Source: Manis javanica
Taxonomy: Eukaryota; Chordata; Mammalia; Pholidota; Manidae
Assembly (NCBI RefSeq): GCF_040802235.1
Contig: NC_133167.1
Coordinates: 95,776,001-95,840,000, forward strand
DNA length: 64,000 nt
Direction: 5' to 3'
The notes under the pieces are model-generated. The model was not told where the DNA came from. It saw only the letters and a program-made list of their open reading frames with translations, and did no database searches. This document shows, piece after piece, positions 5,848 to 56,554 of this stretch. A program made the translations under genes and the position numbers. The first letter of the stretch is position 1. Each line of letters starts with the position of its first letter.

Positions 5848-6685
5848 TGACACAGTTATCTTTTTTTGTGTGTGTGAGGGCATCTCTCATATTTATTGAT
5901 CAAATGGTTGTTAACAACAATAAAATTCTCTATAGGGGGTTCAATGCTCAATGCACAATCATTAATCCATCTCAAGCCTAATTCTCGTCAGTCTCCAATC
6001 TTCTGAAGCATAACGAACAAGCTCTTACATGGTGAACGAATTCTTACATAGTGAATAAGTTCTTACATGGTGAACAGTACAAGGGCATTCATCACAGAAA
6101 CTTTCGGTTTTGATCATGCATTATGAACTATAAACAATCAGGTCAAATATGAATATTCGTTTGATTTTTATACTTGATTTATATGTGGATCCCACATTTC
6201 TCCCTTTATTATTATTATTATTTTTATTTTTAATAAAATGCTGAAGTGGTAGATAGATGCAAGATAAAGGTAGAAAACATAGTTTAGTGCTGTAAGAGAG
6301 CAATTGTAGATGATCAGGTGTGTGCCTGTAGACTATGTGCTAATCCAAGCTAGACAAGGGCAACAAAACATCCACGGATGCAGAAGATTTCTCTCAAAGC
6401 AGGGGGGGTGAGGTTCTGAGCCTCACCTCTGTTGATCCCCAATTTCTCACCTGATGGCCCCCCTGCGACTGTGCCTGTCTTAGGTTGTTCCTCCCTTGAG
6501 GAATCTTACCCGTCTCTGGCTAACCAGTCATCTTCCGGGGCCATACAGGGAGATGTAAAGTTGGTAAGTGAGAGAGAAGCAATATTGTTTGAAAAGGTGA
6601 GCTTTTTACTTCTTTGCAGATTTATGCCCTGTGACTTCTATGCCCAGCACTTGTCTCGAGGTATCTTTATGACACAGGTATCTTT
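5848..6685 (-). mobile_element. L1-mobilised ERV-tail retroposon, 5'-truncated copy
   Basis: This insertion of about 806 bp (5864-6669) is flanked by a 16-bp target-site duplication: 5848-5863 and 6670-6685 differ at one base. On the minus strand it ends in a degenerate poly(A) (T-rich at 5861-5867). AATAAA is the complement of 5892-5897, about 25 nt upstream of the A tail. It aligns colinearly with the 47.8-48.6 kb copy: LTR U3-R at about 5868-6196, a purine-rich tract next to it, then the retroviral region upstream of the LTR. The homology stops exactly at the right duplication. The poly(A), the long duplication and 5' truncation are signs of L1 machinery, not retroviral integration. Retroviral origin rests on the fuller copy. 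Confidence 0.85.
6021..6077 (-). repeat. Triplicated ~19-bp motif inside the ERV-tail LTR
   Basis: Three near-identical units built on 'ttcttacatggtgaac' run head to tail (6021-6040, 6041-6059, 6060-6077). The same three units occur in the other copy (about 47966-48022), so the triplication predates dispersal of the family. Short direct repeats in a U3 often act as enhancer repeats; that role here is inference. Confidence 0.75.
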
Positions 6686-22487: not shown

Positions 22488-22727
22488 AAAAATGCCCCTG
22501 AGGGCATTACGATTAGCACACATAATGTAGTGGGTGGGGGGCATGGGGAAGGCAATATAACACAGAGAAGACAAGTAGTGATTCTATAGCATCTTACTAC
22601 GCTGATGGACAGTGACTGTAATGGAGTATGTGGGGGTAGACTTGATAATAGGGGGAGTCTAGTAACCATAATGTTCAAGTAATTGTACATTAATGATATA
22701 AAAATAAAAATTAAAAATGCCCCTGAG
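22488..22727 (+). mobile_element. 5'-truncated L1 3' end with 15-bp target-site duplication
   Basis: A 210-bp insert (22503-22712) is bounded by AAAAATGCCCCTGAG at 22488-22502 and 22713-22727, a perfect 15-bp duplication. It contains 'gatggacagtgactgtaat', 'gtctagtaaccataatg' and 'aagtaattgtacattaatg' and ends in an A-rich tail. This is the L1 3'UTR, seen in the opposite orientation at 50.3 kb. The overlapping minus-strand open frame (22472-22765) is antisense to it. Confidence 0.9.
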
Positions 22728-47671: not shown

Positions 47672-47802
47672 CTGGTATGGAAATGGACTGCTACTCTCCA
47701 TCCCCTGGAAGCACCCATTTATGGAGATGCACTAAAGCCAGGTGAAAGATTCTGGAAATATTTCAGTTTTACCCACACTCCTGAACAACATTACCAATAT
47801 CT

Positions 47803-47820
47803 TTTTTTTTTTTTTTTTTT
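47803..47820 (-). repeat. Poly(A) tail of the composite element
   Basis: An uninterrupted T run on the + strand. AATAAA (complement of 47837-47842) lies 16-17 nt upstream on the minus strand, the usual spacing of polyadenylation signal to tail. This shows the element was copied from a processed RNA. Confidence 0.85.
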
Positions 47821-48141
47821 GAGAGGGTACCTCATATTTATTGATCAAATGGTTGTTAACAACAATAAAATTCTGTATAGGGGAGTCAATGCTCAATGCA
47901 CAATCATTAATCCATCTCAAGCCTAATTCTCATCAGTCTCCAATCTTCTGAAGCATAATGAACAAGTTCTTATATGGTGAACAAATTCTTACATAGTGAA
48001 TAAGTTCTTACATGGTGAACAGTACAAGGGCAGTCATCACAGAAACTTTCGGTTTTGATCACGCATTATGAACTGTAAACAATCACGTCAGATATGAATA
48101 TTCGTTTGATTTTTATACTTGGTTTATATGTGGATCCCACA
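47821..48141 (-). repeat. ERV LTR, U3-R part, of the tail
   Basis: On the minus strand the LTR begins TGTGGGATCC at 48141, directly after a polypurine tract, and runs to the cleavage site at 47821. U5 is missing, as expected when the copy comes from polyadenylated RNA. It contains a perfect palindrome GTTGTTAACAAC and the triplicated ~19-bp motif. It is colinear and highly similar to 5868-6196. The LTR family is not recognised. Confidence 0.7.
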
Positions 48142-48155
48142 TTTCTCCCTTTATT
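48142..48155 (-). other. Retroviral polypurine tract
   Basis: On the minus strand AATAAAGGGAGAAA immediately precedes the TG of the LTR. A purine run abutting the U3 is the plus-strand primer site of retroviruses. The same sequence and spacing occur in the 5.9-kb copy (6197-6210). Confidence 0.65.
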
Positions 48156-48892
48156 ATTATTATTATTTTTATTTTTTATAATATGCTGAAGTGGTAGGTA
48201 GATGCAAGATAAAGGTAAAAAACATAGTTTAGTGTTGTAAGAGAGGAATTGTAGATGATCAGGTGTGTGCCTGTAGACTATGTGTTAATCCGAGCTAGAC
48301 AAGGGCATTAAAACATCCACGGATGCAGAAGATTTCTCTCAAAACAGGGGGGGTGAGGTTCTAAGCTTCACCACTGTTGATCCCCAATTTCTCACCTGAT
48401 GGCCCCCCTGCGACTGTGCCTGTCATAGGTTGTTCCTCCCTTGAGGAATCTTACCCGTCTCTGGCTAACCAGTCATCTTCCGGGGCCATACAGGGAAATG
48501 TACAGTTGGTAAGTGAGAGAGAAGCCTTATTGTTTGAAAAGGTTAGTTTTTTACTTCTTTGCATATTTATGCCCTGTGCTTCTATGCCCAGCATTTGTCT
48601 TGAGGTGTCTTTACCACTTGGAAGAATTGTGATACACGGTAAATTCGATATGAGGCACGAATTCTATTTAGGGGTTGTAATTAGGAAGGAAGAAGAAAAG
48701 CTACAGAAGTAGCAGGCGGAAGAAAACCTGGGAAGATTATTTCTTTGACGTATCTTCTTGTAGAGTAACTTAAGCACGTATAGGTTTTAAACTACTAACT
48801 AACTTGCGCACACATATTAACATAATAGGAATACAGTTACATAAACAAAGCAGATCTATAATTACCAGCCATCTCCAGTGAAGCCAAGAAAA
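48156..48892 (-). other. Retroviral 3' region between env and LTR
   Basis: Continuing the env frame past its stop, the first part (about 48892-48780) still encodes a hydrophobic stretch (WLVIIDLLCLCNCI...) consistent with the Env membrane anchor. The rest shows no gene in the sense direction. The part up to about 48617 is shared with the 5.9-kb copy. On the + strand both copies hold a related open frame (6432-6719 and 48377-48712) that is antisense to the element. Confidence 0.5.
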
Positions 48893-49180
48893 CTAGTTAG
48901 GCCCCCTAGGCATTTGTGAAAATTTGTCTATGATATGATGGATATTGTCCAACTGTACTTGAACAGTCTGAGAGAAATCAGACAAATTAAAGCAGCCCAT
49001 TTCTGGAAACTGTTCACATCCCATATGTTCTTTTAACCGTAGATAGTCTGTAGTTGTAAGATTTTGGAGCGCTACAACTTGCACTTCTCCTATTTCTTGG
49101 TTGAGTTCCAACAGTATAGATCCAGTCAAATTTGTTGTTTTACTGTATGCACAGGCCAGCTTAGATATCTCCTTCTTCAT
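48893..49180 (-). pseudogene. Endogenous retrovirus env, transmembrane-subunit remnant
   Basis: This 95-codon open frame has the layout of a gamma-type retroviral TM ectodomain: a heptad-rich N-helix, a segment around LQNLTTTDYLRLKEH that aligns with the immunosuppressive-domain position, then the disulfide-loop region GCEQFPEMGCFNLSD and a C-helix. The loop should read CX6CC; here the first cysteine of the pair is replaced by glycine. An in-frame stop follows before the membrane anchor. Upstream, the fusion-peptide region is disrupted and no surface subunit is present. It is a dead fragment, not a domesticated envelope. The type of TM is recognised by pattern only. Confidence 0.75.
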
Positions 49181-49319
49181 TCCAATGGCAAGTCCAGGAA
49201 ATGGTGGGATGGATGCAGCTACAACTGCAGCATCGCCTGCATCTTTGTGGAGGTTTTTTGATGATCATCTTCTGGTATGAGTCTTCCAGAGAGTGCTGAT
49301 GTTGGAAGTTCTTCATATC

Positions 49320-49614
49320 GTATCTTAGTTCATTTTCTGGGTAGCCAAATTAGGCTTTCATCCTCTGTATGAACACAAACAGACCCTTTGCCCACACTTT
49401 GATATGCCCTTTATACCATTGTGTAGAACTCATTGGAGGTCACCACACAGGAACAGCCTTTTTTTTTTTATTAAAAGAATGGAATATTATCAGAAAAGTG
49501 TACCTCCATAGCCGATCATCTGACACCCTTTAAGTGATCAAAATTAAGGATATTTAAAGCATGCGTTAATCTTTGATTTACCATTAGTTTTATCCTATCA
49601 AGGAGTAATCCCCC
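49320..49614 (-). pseudogene. Endogenous retrovirus pol, integrase C-terminal remnant
   Basis: On the minus strand, broken frames give an integrase-like order: a LTHALNILNF helix segment near 49550-49580, an A-rich lysine run at about 49461-49471, WYKGHIKVWAKG near 49390-49425 and, after a frameshift, SVCVHTEDESLIWLP near 49345-49385. This matches the C-terminal domain of beta/D-type retroviral integrases as I know them. At least two stops and one frameshift are present. The Pol end is joined directly to Env TM, so the surface-subunit coding region was deleted before or during copying. Confidence 0.6.
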
Positions 49615-49617
49615 TTT

Positions 49618-49711
<94 letters not shown>

Positions 49712-50296
49712 TTTCTTCCTTTCTTCCTTTCTTCCTTTCTTCCTTTCTTCCTTTCTTCCTTTCTTCCTTTCTTCCTTTTCTTCCTTCCTTTCTTCCTTTC
49801 TTCCTTCCTTTCCTTCCCTTTCTTCCTTTCTTCCTTTCTTCCTTTCTTCCTTTCTTCCTTTCTTCCTTTCTTCCTTTCTTTCCCTTTCTTCCTTTTCCCT
49901 TTCTTCCTTTCTTCCTTTCTTCCTTCCTTTCTTCCTTTCTTCCTTTCTTCCTTTCTTCCTTTCTTCCTTTCTTCCTTTCTTCCTTTCTTCCTTTCTTCCT
50001 TTCTTCCTTCCTTTCTTCCTTTCTTCCTTTCTTCCTTTCTTCCTTTCTTCCTTTCTTCCTTTCTTCCTTTCTTCCTTTCTTCCTTTCTTCCTTTCTTCCT
50101 TTCTTCCTTTCTTCCTTTCTTCCTTTCCTTCCTCCCTTCCTCCCTTCCTCCCTTCCTCCCTTCCTCCCTTCCTCCCTTCCTCCCTTCCTTCCTTCCTTCC
50201 TCCTTCCTTCCTTCCTTCCTTCCTTCCTTCCTTCCTTCCTTCCTTCCTTCCTTCCTTCCTTCCTTCCTTCCTTCCTTCCTTCCTTTTCTTTTTTTT
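49615..50296. repeat. Large pyrimidine microsatellite (CTTT/CTTC/CCTT)n
   Basis: About 680 bp of almost pure pyrimidine on the + strand. The blocks are: pure CTTT at about 49617-49708, 8-bp CTTTCTTC-type units to about 50125, CCTCCCTT units to about 50190, then CTTC to 50283. It sits exactly where the poly(A) of the minus-strand L1 should be, so it probably grew from the internal poly(A). Tetranucleotide expansion of L1 tails is a known route. Assembly length may be unreliable here. Confidence 0.9.
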
Positions 50297-50635
50297 AAAT
50301 CTTTAATCTACACTTACCTGAAGAATACTATGTTTACTAGGCTCTCCCCTATACCAGGTCCCCCCTATAAACCACATTACAGTCACTGTCCATCAGCATA
50401 GCAAAATGTTGTAGAGTCACTACTTGTCCTCTCTGTGTTGTACAGCCCTCCCCTTTCTCCCTCCCCTCTCATGCATGCTTATCTTAATACCCCCTTACTT
50501 CTTCCCCCCCCTTATCCCTCCCTGCCCATCCATCCTCCCCAGTCCCTTTCCCTTTGGTACCTGTTAGTGCATTTTTGGGTTCTGTAATTCCGCTGCTGTT
50601 TTGTTCCTTCAATTTTTCCTTTGTTCTTATACTCC
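50297..50635 (-). other. L1 3'UTR
   Basis: The + strand order 'actatgtttactaggctct', 'ccatcagcatagcaaaatg', 'actacttgtcctctctgtg' and 'ccgctgctgttttgttcct' is shared with truncated L1 ends at 22.5, 23.4 and 47.5 kb. It follows the ORF2 stop region and is bounded by the microsatellite. Confidence 0.85.
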
Positions 50636-53600
50636 TCAGATGAGTGAAATCATTTGGTATTTCTCTTTCTCCACTTTGCTTATTTCACTGAGCATAATAC
50701 CCTCCAGCTCCATCCATGTTGCTGCAAATGGTAGGATTTGCCCTCTTCTTATGGCTGAGTAGTATTCCATTGTGTATATATACCACATCTTCTTTATCCA
50801 TTCATCTATTGATGGACATTTAGGTTGCTTCCAATTCTTGGCAACTGTAAATAGTGCTTGCGATAAACATAGGGGTGCATCTGTCTTTCTCAAACTTGAT
50901 TACTGCGTTCTTAGGGTAAATTCCTAGGAGTGCAATTCCTGGGTCAAATGGTAAGTCTGTTTCGAGCATTTTGATGAACCTCCATACTGCTTTCACAATG
51001 GCTGAATTAATTTACATTCCCACCAGCAGTGTAGGAGGGTTCCCCTTTCTCCACAGCCTCGCCAACATTGTTGTTGTTTGTCTTTTGGATGGCAGCCACC
51101 CTTACTGGTGTGAGATGATACCTCATTGTAGTTTTAATTTGCATTTCTCTGATAATTAGCGATGTGGAGCATCATTGCATGTGTCTGTTGGCCATCTGTC
51201 TTTCTTTTTTGGAGAACCGTCTGTTCAGTTCCTCTGCCCATTTTTTAATTGGGTAATTTGTTTTTTGTTTGTTGAGGCGTGTGAGCTCTTTATATATTCT
51301 GGACGTCCAGCCTTTATCGGATCTGTCATTTTCAGATATATTCTCCCATACCGTAGGGTTCCTTTTTGTTCTATTGATGGTGTCTTTTGCTGTACAGAAG
51401 CTTTTCAGCTTAATATAGTCCCAACTGTTCATTTTTGCTGTTGTTTTCCTTGCCCAGGGAGATATGTTCAAGAAGAGGTCACTCATGTTTATGTCTAAGA
51501 GTTTTTTCCTATGTTTTTTCCCAAGAGTTTAATGGTTTCATGACTTCCATTCAGGTCTTTGATCCATTTTGAGTTTACTTTTGTATATGGGGTTAGACAA
51601 TGGTCCAGTTTCATTCTCCTACATGTAGCTGTCCAGTTTTGCCAGCACCATCTGTTGAAGAGACTGTCATTTTGCCATTGTATGCCCATGGCTCCTTTAT
51701 TAAATATTAATTGACCACATATGTTTGGGTTAATTTCTGGAGTCTCTGATCTGTTCCACTGGTCTGTGGCTCTGTTCTTGTGCCAGTACCAAGTTGTCTT
51801 GATTACTATGGCTTTATAGTAGAGCTTGAAGTTGGGGAGTGAGATCCTCCCTACTTTATTCTTCTTTCTCAGGATTGCTTTGGCTATTTGGGGCCTTTGG
51901 TGTTTCCATATGAATTTTTGAATAATTTGTTCCAGTTCATTGAAGAATGTTGCTGGTAATTTGATAGGGATTGCATCAAATATATATATTGCTTTGGGCA
52001 TGGTGGCCATTTTGACGATATTAATTCTTCCTAGCCATGAGCATGGGATGAGTTTCCATTTGATAGTGTCCCCTTTAATTTCTCTTAAGAGTGACTTGTA
52101 GTTTTCAGGGTATAGGTCTTTCACTTCTTTGGTTAGTTTTATTCCTAGGTATTTTATTCTTTTTGATGCAATTGTGAATGGAATTGTTTTCCTGATTTCT
52201 CTTTCTATTGGTTCATTGTTAGTGTATAGGAAAGCCACAGATTTCTGTGTGTTAATTTTGTATCCTGCAACTTTGCTGTATTCCGATATCAGTTCTAGTA
52301 GTTTTGGAGTGGAGTCTTTAGGGTTTTTTATGTACAATATCATGTCATCTGCAAATAGTGACAGTTTAACTTCTTCCTTACCAATCTGGATTCCTTGTAT
52401 TTCTTTGTTTTGTCTGATTGCCATAGCTGGGACCTCCAGTACTATGTTAAATAACAGTGGGGAGAGTGGGCATCCCTGTCTAGTTCCTGATCTCAGAGGT
52501 AAAGCTTTCAGCTTCTCGCTGTTCAGTATAATGTTGGTTTTGGGTTTATCATAAATGGCCTTCATTATGTTGCGGTACTTGCCCTCTATTCCCATTTTGC
52601 TGAGAGTTTTTATCATGAATGGATGTTGAATTTTGTCAAATGCTTTTTCAGCATCTATGGAGATGATCATGTGGTTTTTGTCTTTCTTTTTGTTGATGTG
52701 GTGGATGATGTTGATGGATTTTCGAATGTTGTACCATCCTTGCATCCCTGGGATGAATCCCACTTGGTCATGGTGTATGATCCTTTTGATATACTGTTGA
52801 ATTCTGTTTGCTAATATTTTATTGAGTATTTTTGCATCTACATTCATCAGGGATATTGGTCTGTAATTTTCTTTTTTGGTGGGGTCTTTGCCTGGTTTTG
52901 GTATTGGGGTGATGTTGGCTTCATAGAATGAATTTGGGAGTGTTCCCTCCTCTTCTATTTTTTGGAACACTTTAAGGAGAATGGGTATTATGTCTTCTCT
53001 GTGTGTCTGATAAAATTCCGAGGTAAACTGTCCGGTCCCGGGGTTTTGTTCTTGGGTAGTTTTTTGATTACCATTTCAATTTCTTTGCTCGTAATTGGTT
53101 TGTTTAACTTTTGTGTTTCTTCCTTTGTCAGTCTTGGGAGGTTGTATTTTTCTAGGAAGTTGTCCATTTCTTCTAGGTTTTCCAGCTTGTTGGCATATAG
53201 GTTTTCATAGTAGTCTTTAATAATTCTTTGTATTTCTGTGGAGTCTGTCGAGATTATTCTGTTCTCATTTCTGATGCTGTTGATTTGTGTTGATTCTCTT
53301 TTTCTCTTAATAAGTTTGGCTAGAGGCTTATCTATTTTGTTTATTTTCTCAAAGAACCAGCTCTTGGTTTCGTTGATTTTTGCTAATGTTTTATTCTTCT
53401 CAATTTTGTTTATTTCTTCTCTGATCTTTATTATGTCCCTCCTTCTGCTGTCTTTAGGCCTCATTAGTTCTTCTTTTTCCAGTTTCGATAATTGTGATGT
53501 TAGTCTATTCATTTGGGATTGTTCGTCCTTCTTCAAGTGTGCCTGGATTGCTATATACTTTCCTCTTAAGTCTGCTTTCGCTGCGTCCCACGGAAGTTGG

Positions 53601-54475
53601 GGCATTGTGTTGTTGTTGTCATTTGTTTCTATATATTCCTTGATCTCTATTTTGATTTATTCATTGATCCATTGTTTATTTAGAAGCATGTTGTTAAGCC
53701 TCCATGTGTTTGTGAGCCTTTTTGTTTTCTTTGCAGAATTTATTTCTAGTTTTATACCTTTGTGGTCTGACATATTGGTTAGTAGAATTTCAATATTTTG
53801 AAATTTACGGAGGCTCTTTTTGTGAGCTAGTATGTGGTGTATTCTGGAGAATGTTCCATGTGCACTTGAGAAGAATGTATATCCTGTTGCTTTTGCATGT
53901 AGAGTTCTATAGATGTCTGTTAGGTCCATCTGTTCTAGTGTGTTGTTCAATGCCTGTGTGTCCTTACTTATTTTCTGCCAAGTGGATCTATCCTTTGGGG
54001 TGAGTGGTGTGTTGAAGTCTCCTAAAATGAATGCATTGCAGTCTATTTCCCTCTTTAGTTCTGTTAGTATTTGTTTCACATATGCTGGTGCTCCTGTGTT
54101 GGGTGCATATATATTTAGAATGATTATATCCTCTTGTTGGACTGAGCCCTTTATCATTATGTAGTGTCCTTCTTTATCTCTTGTTACTTTCTTTGTTTTG
54201 AAGTCTATTTTGTCTGATATTAGTACTGCAACCCCTGCTTTCTTCTCACTGTTGTTTGCCTGAAATATGTTTTTCCATCCCTTGACTTTTAGTCTGTGCT
54301 TGTCTTTGGGTTTGAGGTGAGTTTCTTGTAAGCAGCATATAGATGGGTCTTGCTTTTTTATCCATTCTATTACTCTGTGTCGTTTGATTGGTGCATTAAG
54401 TCCATTTACATGTAGGGTGACTATTGAGAGATATGTACTTATTGCCATTGCAGGCTTTAGATTCGTGGTTACCAA
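50636..54475 (-). pseudogene. L1 ORF2 (endonuclease-reverse transcriptase), inactivated
   Basis: The N-terminal segment (54475-53657) is an AP-like endonuclease with CCLQETH, the GDFN motif and SDHKG near its end. The middle frames (53605-52988 and 52970-51495) hold the reverse transcriptase, including the FADD active-site motif in [12 protein letters not shown] and the preceding [14 protein letters not shown]. The C-terminal pieces (51486-51172 and 50893-50636) include MWYIYTMEYYSAIRRG. Breaks: a stop at about 53657, a frameshift near 53030, another near 51495, a stop near 51172 and further damage to about 50893. A working protein would be about 1,270 residues in one frame. The element can no longer act in cis. 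Confidence 0.93.
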
Positions 54476-54595
54476 AGATTCAAGGTTAGCTTCTTTAGTA
54501 TCTTACTGCCTAACTTAGCTCGCTTATTGAGCTGTTATGTACACTGTCTGGAGATTCTTTTCTTCTCTCCCTTCTTATTCCTCCTCTTCCATTCT

Positions 54596-55534
54596 TCATA
54601 TGTTGTGTGTTTTGTTCTGTGCTCTTTTTAGGAGTGCTCCCATCTTGAGCAGTCCCTGTAGGATGCCCTGTAGAGGTGGTTTGTGGGAAGCAAATTCCCT
54701 CAGCTTTTGCTTGTCTGGAAATTGTTTAATTCCGCCATCATACTTAAATGATAGTCGTGCTGGATACAGTATCCTTGGTTCAAGGCCCTTCTGTTTCATT
54801 GCATTAAGTATATCATGCCATTCTCTTCTGGCCTGTAGGGTTTCTGTCGAGAAGTCTGATGTTAGCCTGATGGGTTTTCCTTTATAGGTGACCTTTTTCT
54901 CTCTAGCTGCCTTTAAAACTCTCTCCTTGTCCTTGATCCTTTCCATTTTAATTATTATGTGTCTTGGTGTTGTCCTCCTTGGATCTTTTCTGTTGGGGGT
55001 TCTGTGTATTTCCGTGGTCTGTTTGATTATTTCCTCCCCCAGTTTGGGGAAGTTTTCAGCAATTATTTCTTCAAAGAGACTTTCTATCCCTTTTCCTCTC
55101 TCTTCTTCTTCTGGTACCCCTATAATACGAATATTATTCCTTTTTGATTGGTCACATAGTTCTCTTAGTATTGTTTCGTTCCTGGAGATCCTTTTATCTC
55201 GCTCTATGTCAGCTTCTATACGTTCCTGTTCTCTGGTTTCTATTTCTTCAATGGCCTCTTGCATCTTATCTATTCTGCTCATAAATCCTTCCAGGGTTTG
55301 TTTCACTTCTGTGATCTCCTTCCTGACATCTGTGATCTCCCTCCGGACTTCATCCCATTGCTCTTGCATTTTTCTCTGCATCTCATCCCATTGCTCTTGC
55401 ATTTTTCTCTGCATCTCCGTCAGCATGTTCATGATTTTTATTTTGAATTCTTTTTCAGGAAGACTGGTTAGGTCTGTCTCCTTCTCATGTGTCATCTCTG
55501 TGATCTTTGTCTGCCTGTAGTTTTGCCTTTTCAT
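54596..55534 (-). CDS. L1 ORF1 protein, open reading frame intact
   Basis: 312 residues, close to the usual 300-370. It is the trimeric RNA-binding chaperone that coats L1 RNA. Residues about 20-130 are a coiled coil, residues about 135-230 the RRM-like domain (starting NNIRIIGVPEEEE) and the rest the basic C-terminal domain (with ARLSFKYDGG). The coiled coil has an exact 33-bp (11-residue, EMQRKMQEQWD) tandem duplication at 55351-55416. The start codon is the first ATG after the 5'UTR. About 120 bp separate its stop from the ORF2 frame. Being intact while ORF2 is broken suggests the insertion is not very old. Confidence 0.95.
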   Translation of the reverse strand: MKRQNYRQTKITEMTHEKETDLTSLPEKEFKIKIMNMLTEMQRKMQEQWDEMQRKMQEQWDEVRREITDVRKEITEVKQTLEGFMSRIDKMQEAIEEIETREQERIEADIERDKRISRNETILRELCDQSKRNNIRIIGVPEEEERGKGIESLFEEIIAENFPKLGEEIIKQTTEIHRTPNRKDPRRTTPRHIIIKMERIKDKERVLKAAREKKVTYKGKPIRLTSDFSTETLQARREWHDILNAMKQKGLEPRILYPARLSFKYDGGIKQFPDKQKLREFASHKPPLQGILQGLLKMGALLKRAQNKTHNI

Positions 55535-56536
55535 GGTGATAGAGATAGTTTGCAGAGCTGGTATGAGTGACAGCTGGAAGAGCTTCCCTTCTTGTTGGTT
55601 TGTGGCCTTCCTCTCCTGGGAGAATAGCGACCTCTAGTGGCTTGTGCTTGGCAGCTGTGCGCAGACAGGGCTTCTGCTTCCTGCCCGGTTGCTATGGAGT
55701 TTATCTCTGCTGTTGCTTTGGGCATGGCCTGGCTGGTGCTGTTCCTCCAAAATGGTGCAGCCCCGTTGGAGGGGGAGTGGCCAGGAGGCTATTTATCTCT
55801 GTAAGGGGCCTCCGTGCTCCCTGCTGCCCAGGGGGTTAAAGTGCCCAGAGATCCCCAGATTCCCTGCCTCTGGGCTAAGTGTCGTGTCCTGACCCTTTAA
55901 GACTTCCAAAAAGCACTCTCCAAACCAAAAGAACAACAGCAACAACAAAAGAAAAAAAAAATTAAATAAATAATTTTAAAAAAGGGAAAAATGCGTGATT
56001 TTCTTTGTCCTCAGGCGCCGGTCTCAGGCACCCGCCCCCTTGTCTTGCTTCCCTGTTTCCCTAGCATTGGGGTCCCTGTCCCTTTAAGGCTTCCAAAAAG
56101 CACTCGCCAAAAAAAAAAAAATAAAAGCCTCTCCTGTTTCTTTGTTCTCCGGCATCAGCCTCAGGCACCCGCTTACCAGTCCTGCCGCCCTGTTTCCCTA
56201 GTATCCAGGACCCCACGCATGCACTGTGTCTGTGCTCTTGTCCGGATGGCTGGGGCTGGGTGTTCAGCAGTCCTGGGCTCCCTCCCTGCTGACTCCTCTC
56301 CTCCTGCTGGGGGCTGGGGGGCGGGGCGCTCGGGTCCCATCCGGCCGGGGCTTGTGTCTTATCCCCTTCGCTAGGCCCTGGGTTCTCGCAGGTGTGGATG
56401 TGGTCTGGATGTTGTCCTGTGTCCTCTGGTCTCTATTTTAGGAAGAGTTGTCTTTTTTATATTTTCATAGATAAATGTGGTTTTGGGAGGAGATTTCTGC
56501 TGCTCTACCCACGCCGCCGTCTTGGCTCTGCCTCCC
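55535..56536 (-). promoter_or_regulatory. L1 5'UTR with internal promoter
   Basis: A GC- and CpG-rich 1.0-kb leader. It contains two diverged copies of a module of about 187 bp: 'ccctttaagacttccaaaaa' at 55893 and 'ccctttaaggcttccaaaaa' at 56080, each followed by an A-rich run, a 'caggcacccgc' block and 'cctgtttccctag'. Duplicated 5'UTR modules often mark promoter evolution in L1. Plus-strand frames across it are incidental. Confidence 0.75.
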
Positions 56537-56554
56537 ATTACCAACGTTTTATCT

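Follow-up and report, generated by a model that had tools for sequence, protein, structure and literature searches.

The 64,000-nt stretch of the Manis javanica genome analysed here (contig NC_133167.1, positions 95,776,001 to 95,840,000, called the window) carries on its minus strand a long interspersed element 1 (LINE-1, L1) followed by a fragment of an endogenous retrovirus (ERV), which raises the question whether the two arrived separately or as one mobile element. Coordinates are positions in the window, and sense is the minus strand throughout. In the sense direction a single 8.7-kb unit runs from the L1 through an A-rich spacer, a piece of approximately 150 bp, an A-run and approximately 1.64 kb of retroviral sequence to a poly(A) (Table 1). 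A first-pass annotation of this DNA had proposed that L1 and ERV tail were inserted as one unit, and that they could represent an L1 lineage that had acquired a retroviral 3' end by capture. Both proposals were borne out at other loci. We consider it very probable that the family is an L1 lineage in which the copied RNA continues approximately 1.8 kb past the L1 and stops at the poly(A) site that a captured 3' fragment of a retrovirus provides. The evidence consists of the shared junction, the duplications around whole units, a series of truncated copies, a single poly(A) site and the co-divergence of the two halves.

The M. javanica assembly was searched with positions 49500-50400, a query that spans the L1 end, the spacer and the larger part of the 150-bp piece but stops short of the retroviral part. 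The best 40 of 2280 first-look candidates were scored (the window and 39 others). A second query, made of the 301 bp at the 3' end of the ERV tail, was treated in the same way (best 40 of 1302); both totals are first-look candidates, not scored copies, and give no estimate of copy number. The tail piece adjoined an L1 3' end at 38 of the 39 non-window junction places. The remaining place (L029, fetched at 4 kb) contained the whole tail, was truncated within the spacer and had a 14/14 duplication. Twenty of the 39 places were fetched at 10 kb for side-by-side reading. In all 20 the L1 was joined to the tail piece with an identical junction sequence; 18 contained the retroviral part, and two (L013 and L028) stopped at the internal A-run. 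The L1 5' end was reached by 14 of these loci, and six were truncated within the L1. At two unfetched places (C5:82586748 and C2:212966497) the ERV-end search placed an ERV end at the correct distance and strand. The junction singled out by the first-pass annotation is therefore common to other loci, which have flanks of their own.

In total, an L1 followed by the tail was found at 52 loci including the window; the 13 of these that came from the ERV-end search have no overlap with the junction-search loci. The retroviral part was actually read together with the L1 at 32 loci (the window, 18 and 13). After three copies that represent one segmental duplication (L038, L051 and L052) were counted as one, these numbers became 50 and 30, respectively.

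Target-site duplications were tested with unit ends set by hand from the alignments and with 20 random controls per locus. Duplications around the whole unit beat all 20 controls at 12 of the 20 fetched loci, with lengths of 11-19 bp. Ten of them were perfect at 14-19 bp; L020 had 11 bp and L022 14/15. Units truncated within the L1 were among the supported loci (L015, L021, L022, L023 and L027), and in these one copy of the duplication adjoined the L1 and the other stood behind the ERV poly(A). The signs of L1 insertion (poly(A), target duplications, 5' truncation) were present, as was the layout of a 3' transduction, in which L1 tail, extra sequence and second poly(A) lie within one duplication. 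Short duplications of fixed length, as in retroviral-type integration, were not found in the copies, which have L1-type duplications of 11-19 bp beside a poly(A). As DNA copies, 17 of the 18 long fetched loci end at the ERV poly(A) site and not at the L1 3' end. This site is common, within a few bases, to these 17, the window and a second, truncated tail copy in the window, and the AATAAA is likewise common; L017 ends before it.

In the window, AAAACGTTGGTAATG at the L1 5' end and AAGATATTGGTAATG at the end of the A-run are identical at 12 of 15 positions, with three transitions. This ungapped 15-bp alignment replaces the 14-base duplication split by CGTTT that had been proposed earlier. The match was equalled by 13 of 200,000 random window pairs, at an alignment offset chosen by hand. 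In a looser test the best of 20 controls scored equally high, and the case therefore rests on the other loci.

Independent copies of ERV mRNA were considered as a source of the tails and rejected, since none of the 13 tails that reach the junction is without L1. For this test 23 of the 39 non-self ERV-end places were fetched (L029 is a 24th). Ten were 5'-truncated within the ERV; the other 13 reached the junction, and all 13 ran on into an L1. Six of the ten truncated tails (L030, L033, L034, L036, L040 and L041) had perfect duplications of 13-18 bp, some of them tested without controls; those of L040 and L041 were tied by the best of 20 controls, possibly overlapping the site. No clear duplication was seen at the other four (L035, L044, L045 and L049), and the flanks of L045 and L049 were unlike the other sequences compared. 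Together with the second tail copy in the window (15/16 duplication), the truncated tails form the truncation series that is predicted by one L1-ERV unit.

L048 reaches the junction but lacks the 150-bp piece. It probably lost this piece between the two A-runs, because in the ERV tree it nests among copies that contain it; for the same reason it was set aside as an ancestral state. L035, which is cut within the transmembrane (TM) region of Env and has no duplication, was considered as a provirus and rejected, its flank containing L1-like fragments and no sign of the surface (SU) region. At L035:780-890 (sense) a fragment of approximately 45 bases, similar to L1 open reading frame 2 (ORF2), adjoins the ERV tail behind a piece similar to the L1 3' untranslated region (3'UTR), perhaps through an internal jump during copying. 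The tail copy at L044:936-2200 (sense) lies within ORF2 of another L1.

The two halves have also diverged together. The L1-end and ERV distances were correlated (r 0.68) across 15 sequences, the window plus 14 fetched loci; the other six, L013, L015, L021, L022, L024 and L028, were excluded as short, truncated or nested. None of 2000 permutations gave a value as high. One tree was built from the L1 end including the 150-bp piece (22 rows, of which four were less than half filled) and another from the ERV part (31 rows, L051 and L052 being dropped as duplicates of L038). In both trees L011, L020, L021, L022, the outer copy of L024 and L026 split off with 100/100 support. In the ERV tree L050 joins these six, and L038, which had been put beforehand in the label for this group, falls outside it. 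The median end branch of the ERV tree is 0.023 and its inner forks are mostly weak, a burst-like pattern. Mean pairwise divergence over the 15 loci is 4.8% for the L1 and 5.4% for the ERV part, or approximately 2.5% per copy. At a mammalian substitution rate of 2.2e-9 per year, this would give the family a rough age of 11-12 million years. Two older L1 3' ends, at 22502-22704 of the window and in the flank of L019, have no tail; they are too few to time the capture.

We propose that target-primed reverse transcription by L1 proteins, presumably those of the element itself acting in cis, copies L1 and ERV tail together. Truncation at the 5' end would then produce copies ranging from the full unit of approximately 8.1 kb to ERV tails a few hundred bases long. 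The capture may have occurred by read-through (3' transduction) from an L1 upstream of, or within, an ERV without the env SU region. The two A-runs suggest that sequence was acquired in two stages: first the 150-bp piece and the A-run belonging to it, later the ERV end.

Several observations weigh against such a lineage. No duplication above every control was found at 8 of the 20 loci (L011, L014, L016, L019, L025 and L028; L013 and L024 tied). At 18 of the 39 junction places the sequence was read at the junction of L1 and 150-bp piece only, the retroviral part being seen by position at two of them, and the restriction to the 40 best-scoring places per search biases the sample towards window-like sequences. 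The donor ERV was not found among the loci read. Finally, an intact ORF2 was present in none of 21 sequences (the 20 loci and the window; longest open stretch 737 codons), and a live source was not seen. ORF1 is open in L011 and L019 (296-297 codons) and in the window (312 codons); the loci of this survey were picked by likeness to the window junction, not by youth.

The order of the capture steps bears on the short forms, which consist of L1, 150-bp piece and poly(A) and of which there are three copies (L013, L028 and the inner copy of L024). That they represent the ancestral state, to which the ERV was added afterwards, is a serious possibility, although we lean against it. In an unrooted tree the short forms are grouped with L023, itself a long copy, in the midst of other long forms (support 85/92). 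The short-form label was barely more clustered than expected by chance, 56 of 500 shuffles being as low. Given this position and the weak clustering, early polyadenylation at the internal AATAAA fits equally well.

Template switching would give the joined unit by another route: the L1 reverse transcriptase would have started on ERV mRNA and jumped to L1 RNA, and the chimera would then have served as source. The ERV part does resemble a 5'-truncated mRNA copy that ends at the poly(A) site with an A-run in front, and chimeras of LINE-1 with other RNAs are described in PMC13174262. Template switching by itself leaves the 150-bp piece between two A-runs unexplained, however, and we consider it rather unlikely. 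For the capture as such, the sequences are compatible with read-through and with template switching, and both fit.

A nested insertion, in which an ERV mRNA copy mobilised by L1 independently entered the A-tail of a resident L1 and the outer duplication stems from the L1 insertion only, is very improbable. Nesting does occur in this family, since L024 comprises one unit lodged in the A-tail of a second, and the ERV tail of L019 is followed by another, but the same order of L1 and tail is found at 52 loci, with an identical junction sequence in the 20 compared, and L1-truncated units have perfect duplications around L1 and ERV poly(A) together (L015, L021, L023 and L027). The common junction and the 5'-truncated units refute it as the general cause for the family. 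The later copies nested in A-tails of earlier ones are located at L024:7195-7480 and L019:9274-9641 (sense).

Spread of the joined block by segmental or ordinary DNA duplication, as seen for L038, L051 and L052 on contig C12, where common flanks place the unit within a dispersed segmental duplication, is refuted as a general cause by truncation points, target duplications and flanks that differ by locus, and its probability is negligible.

The mechanism itself is known: L1 target-primed reverse transcription can carry 3' sequence along, and ERV 3' ends are known to be moved by L1. In human L1 3' transduction, downstream sequence and a second poly(A) are carried within the target duplications of the L1, and lineages of this type resemble the pangolin family in the carried downstream sequence, the second poly(A) and the single set of target duplications. 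In the pangolin, in contrast, the tail is retroviral, is approximately 1.8 kb long, was read at 30 independent loci and is split into subfamilies, and thus has the character of a 3' end belonging to the family itself. SVA elements are non-autonomous and are not known to contain L1 ORFs, and their SINE-R part (SINE, short interspersed element) is derived from env and long terminal repeat (LTR) of the human endogenous retrovirus (HERV) HERV-K. The passages on SINE-R in PMC10681720 describe it as homologous to a HERV repeat. On that description SVA is alike in having an ERV-derived 3' part mobilised by L1, whereas the pangolin ERV tail sits on an L1 with ORF1 and ORF2 in the unit. Processed pseudogenes of HERV-W are, to our knowledge, copies of ERV mRNA not joined to L1, whereas none of the 13 junction-reaching pangolin tails is free of L1. 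The sections of PMC5016936 on these pseudogenes give U3-R ends, poly(A), a TT/AAAA target, duplications of 5-15 bp and spread by L1, so that they are alike in the dispersal of retroviral 3' ends. The LINE-1 chimeric insertions of PMC13174262 are alike in the fusion of L1 with another RNA; that study appears to date human-lineage insertions and to be concerned with the 5' side of the L1, and its main text mentions neither pangolins nor endogenous retroviruses. For Manis pentadactyla, the abstract and results of an ERV survey (PMC12584738) describe an L1 between env and 3' LTR of one gamma-type ERV, as well as alpha-type ERVs, and contain no L1 lineage of the present kind. An ERV of bats, cats and pangolins is a gammaretrovirus according to PMC4643047. 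An L1 lineage ending in retroviral sequence was not described in the text accessible to a literature search that had subscription papers, Dfam and Repbase outside its scope.

We tentatively suggest, with more doubt than conviction, that the retroviral sequence, rather than being a passenger, now serves as the functional 3' end of a major and recent L1 lineage in pangolins. Its poly(A) signal, and perhaps elements for RNA export or stability, may have displaced a weak L1 termination and aided spread. If true, a LINE has gained a new 3' end through domestication of a retrovirus, much as L1s are known to renew their 5'UTR.

Sequences carried along by L1s are for the most part infrequent passengers confined to single loci. 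In this family the 3' end of a retrovirus has become the regular tail of an L1 lineage that multiplied, and part of one genomic parasite can thus become a lasting component of another. The family offers a natural test of the dispensability of the L1 3' end, of the benefit of another poly(A) signal to a LINE and of the origin of SVA-like composites. In addition, repeat annotation may score such tails as LTR elements, inflating ERV counts in pangolins.

The L1 was identified by Pfam from the RNA-binding and C-terminal domains of ORF1 and the endonuclease and reverse transcriptase of ORF2, the latter being broken in the window. These domains, the microsatellite, the TM frame and the poly(A) were found where the first-pass annotation had placed them. 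It had also read the retroviral segment as integrase, Env TM and LTR. The TM frame matched the avian sarcoma/leukosis TM structure 4jpr (E 1.3e-7) and no Pfam family; the integrase match is weak (E 0.0021 in Pfam; best match in PDB the integrase 3jca, E 1.3). Position downstream of TM and the poly(A) signal suggest that the remainder is U3-R of an LTR. A second LTR-like match was not seen on the upstream side of the tail in any of the 20 loci fetched at 10 kb, no dedicated LTR search having been run. The SU region, expected between the end of the integrase and TM, is missing. All 18 long copies from the 10-kb loci are colinear over the retroviral part, except for an insertion of approximately 360 bp in L016 and the early end of L017. 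The order of L1, repeat and ERV had been recognised correctly, but L1 and ERV are further separated by the 150-bp piece, which ends in a separate A-run and had no Rfam match and no identified kin. The expanded repeat is likewise present in the window but is not a feature of the family, the spacer measuring 15-37 bp at the other measured loci except L043 (approximately 235 bp).

Table 1. Features of the L1-ERV unit and of the second tail copy in the window
Feature	Position	Strand	Basis or remark
5' target-site duplication, sense AAAACGTTGGTAATG	56536..56550	-	adjoins L1 5' end
L1 including 5' end, 5'UTR to 3'UTR	50287..56536	-	aligned to 20 fetched loci, 14 also reaching the L1 5' end
L1 ORF1, frame unbroken in the window	54596..55633	-	Pfam PF02994, PF17490
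L1 ORF2 region, split into several frames (endonuclease, reverse transcriptase)	51172..54502	-	Pfam PF03372, PF00078
A-rich spacer, grown in the window to a (GAAA/GGAA) microsatellite	49615..50286	-	Tandem Repeats Finder (TRF) 49616-50286, 671 bp
Piece of ~150 bp, ends with AATAAA and A-run	49470..49614	-	absent in L048
Second internal A-run, end point of short-form copies	49459..49469	-	sequence
Retrovirus-derived segment: integrase C-terminus, Env TM, probable U3-R	47821..49458	-	U3-R/LTR part putative
Integrase C-terminal domain, 26-residue piece	49330..49410	-	Pfam PF00552 (IN_DBD_C), E 0.0021, below curated cut-off
Env TM fragment, alpharetrovirus-like	48893..49264	-	PDB 4jpr, 5h9c, E 1.3e-7
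AATAAA, directly upstream of poly(A) site	47837..47842	-	sequence
Terminal poly(A), 19 A in sense	47802..47820	-	sequence
3' target-site duplication, sense AAGATATTGGTAATG	47789..47803	-	first two A shared with A-run
Second copy of ERV-derived tail, 5'-truncated, 94% identity	5861..6669	-	within the same window
Second copy, target-site duplication on 3' side of insert (sense)	5848..5863	-	15/16 identical to 6670-6685
Second copy, target-site duplication on 5' side of insert (sense)	6670..6685	-	match to 5848-5863

Sequence-pattern scans of viral and prokaryote contigs gave no matches. The TM fragment had 50 protein relatives (P0001-P0050), all but three from European Nucleotide Archive (ENA) sources and mainly from short contigs; P0046 and P0049, with only 44-48% identity, may be other ERVs. 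Expansion of the spacer to a long (GAAA)n-type microsatellite was seen, among the measured loci, in the window and L043 only. In the ERV-end search eight ERV-tail places with near-equal scores were located at 72.8-82.9 Mb of contig C12. The L1 5' regions of L011 and L026 (sense, approximately 960-1780) gave overlapping repeat matches of the L1 5'UTR, which suggests a tandem duplication of the 5'UTR in a subfamily.

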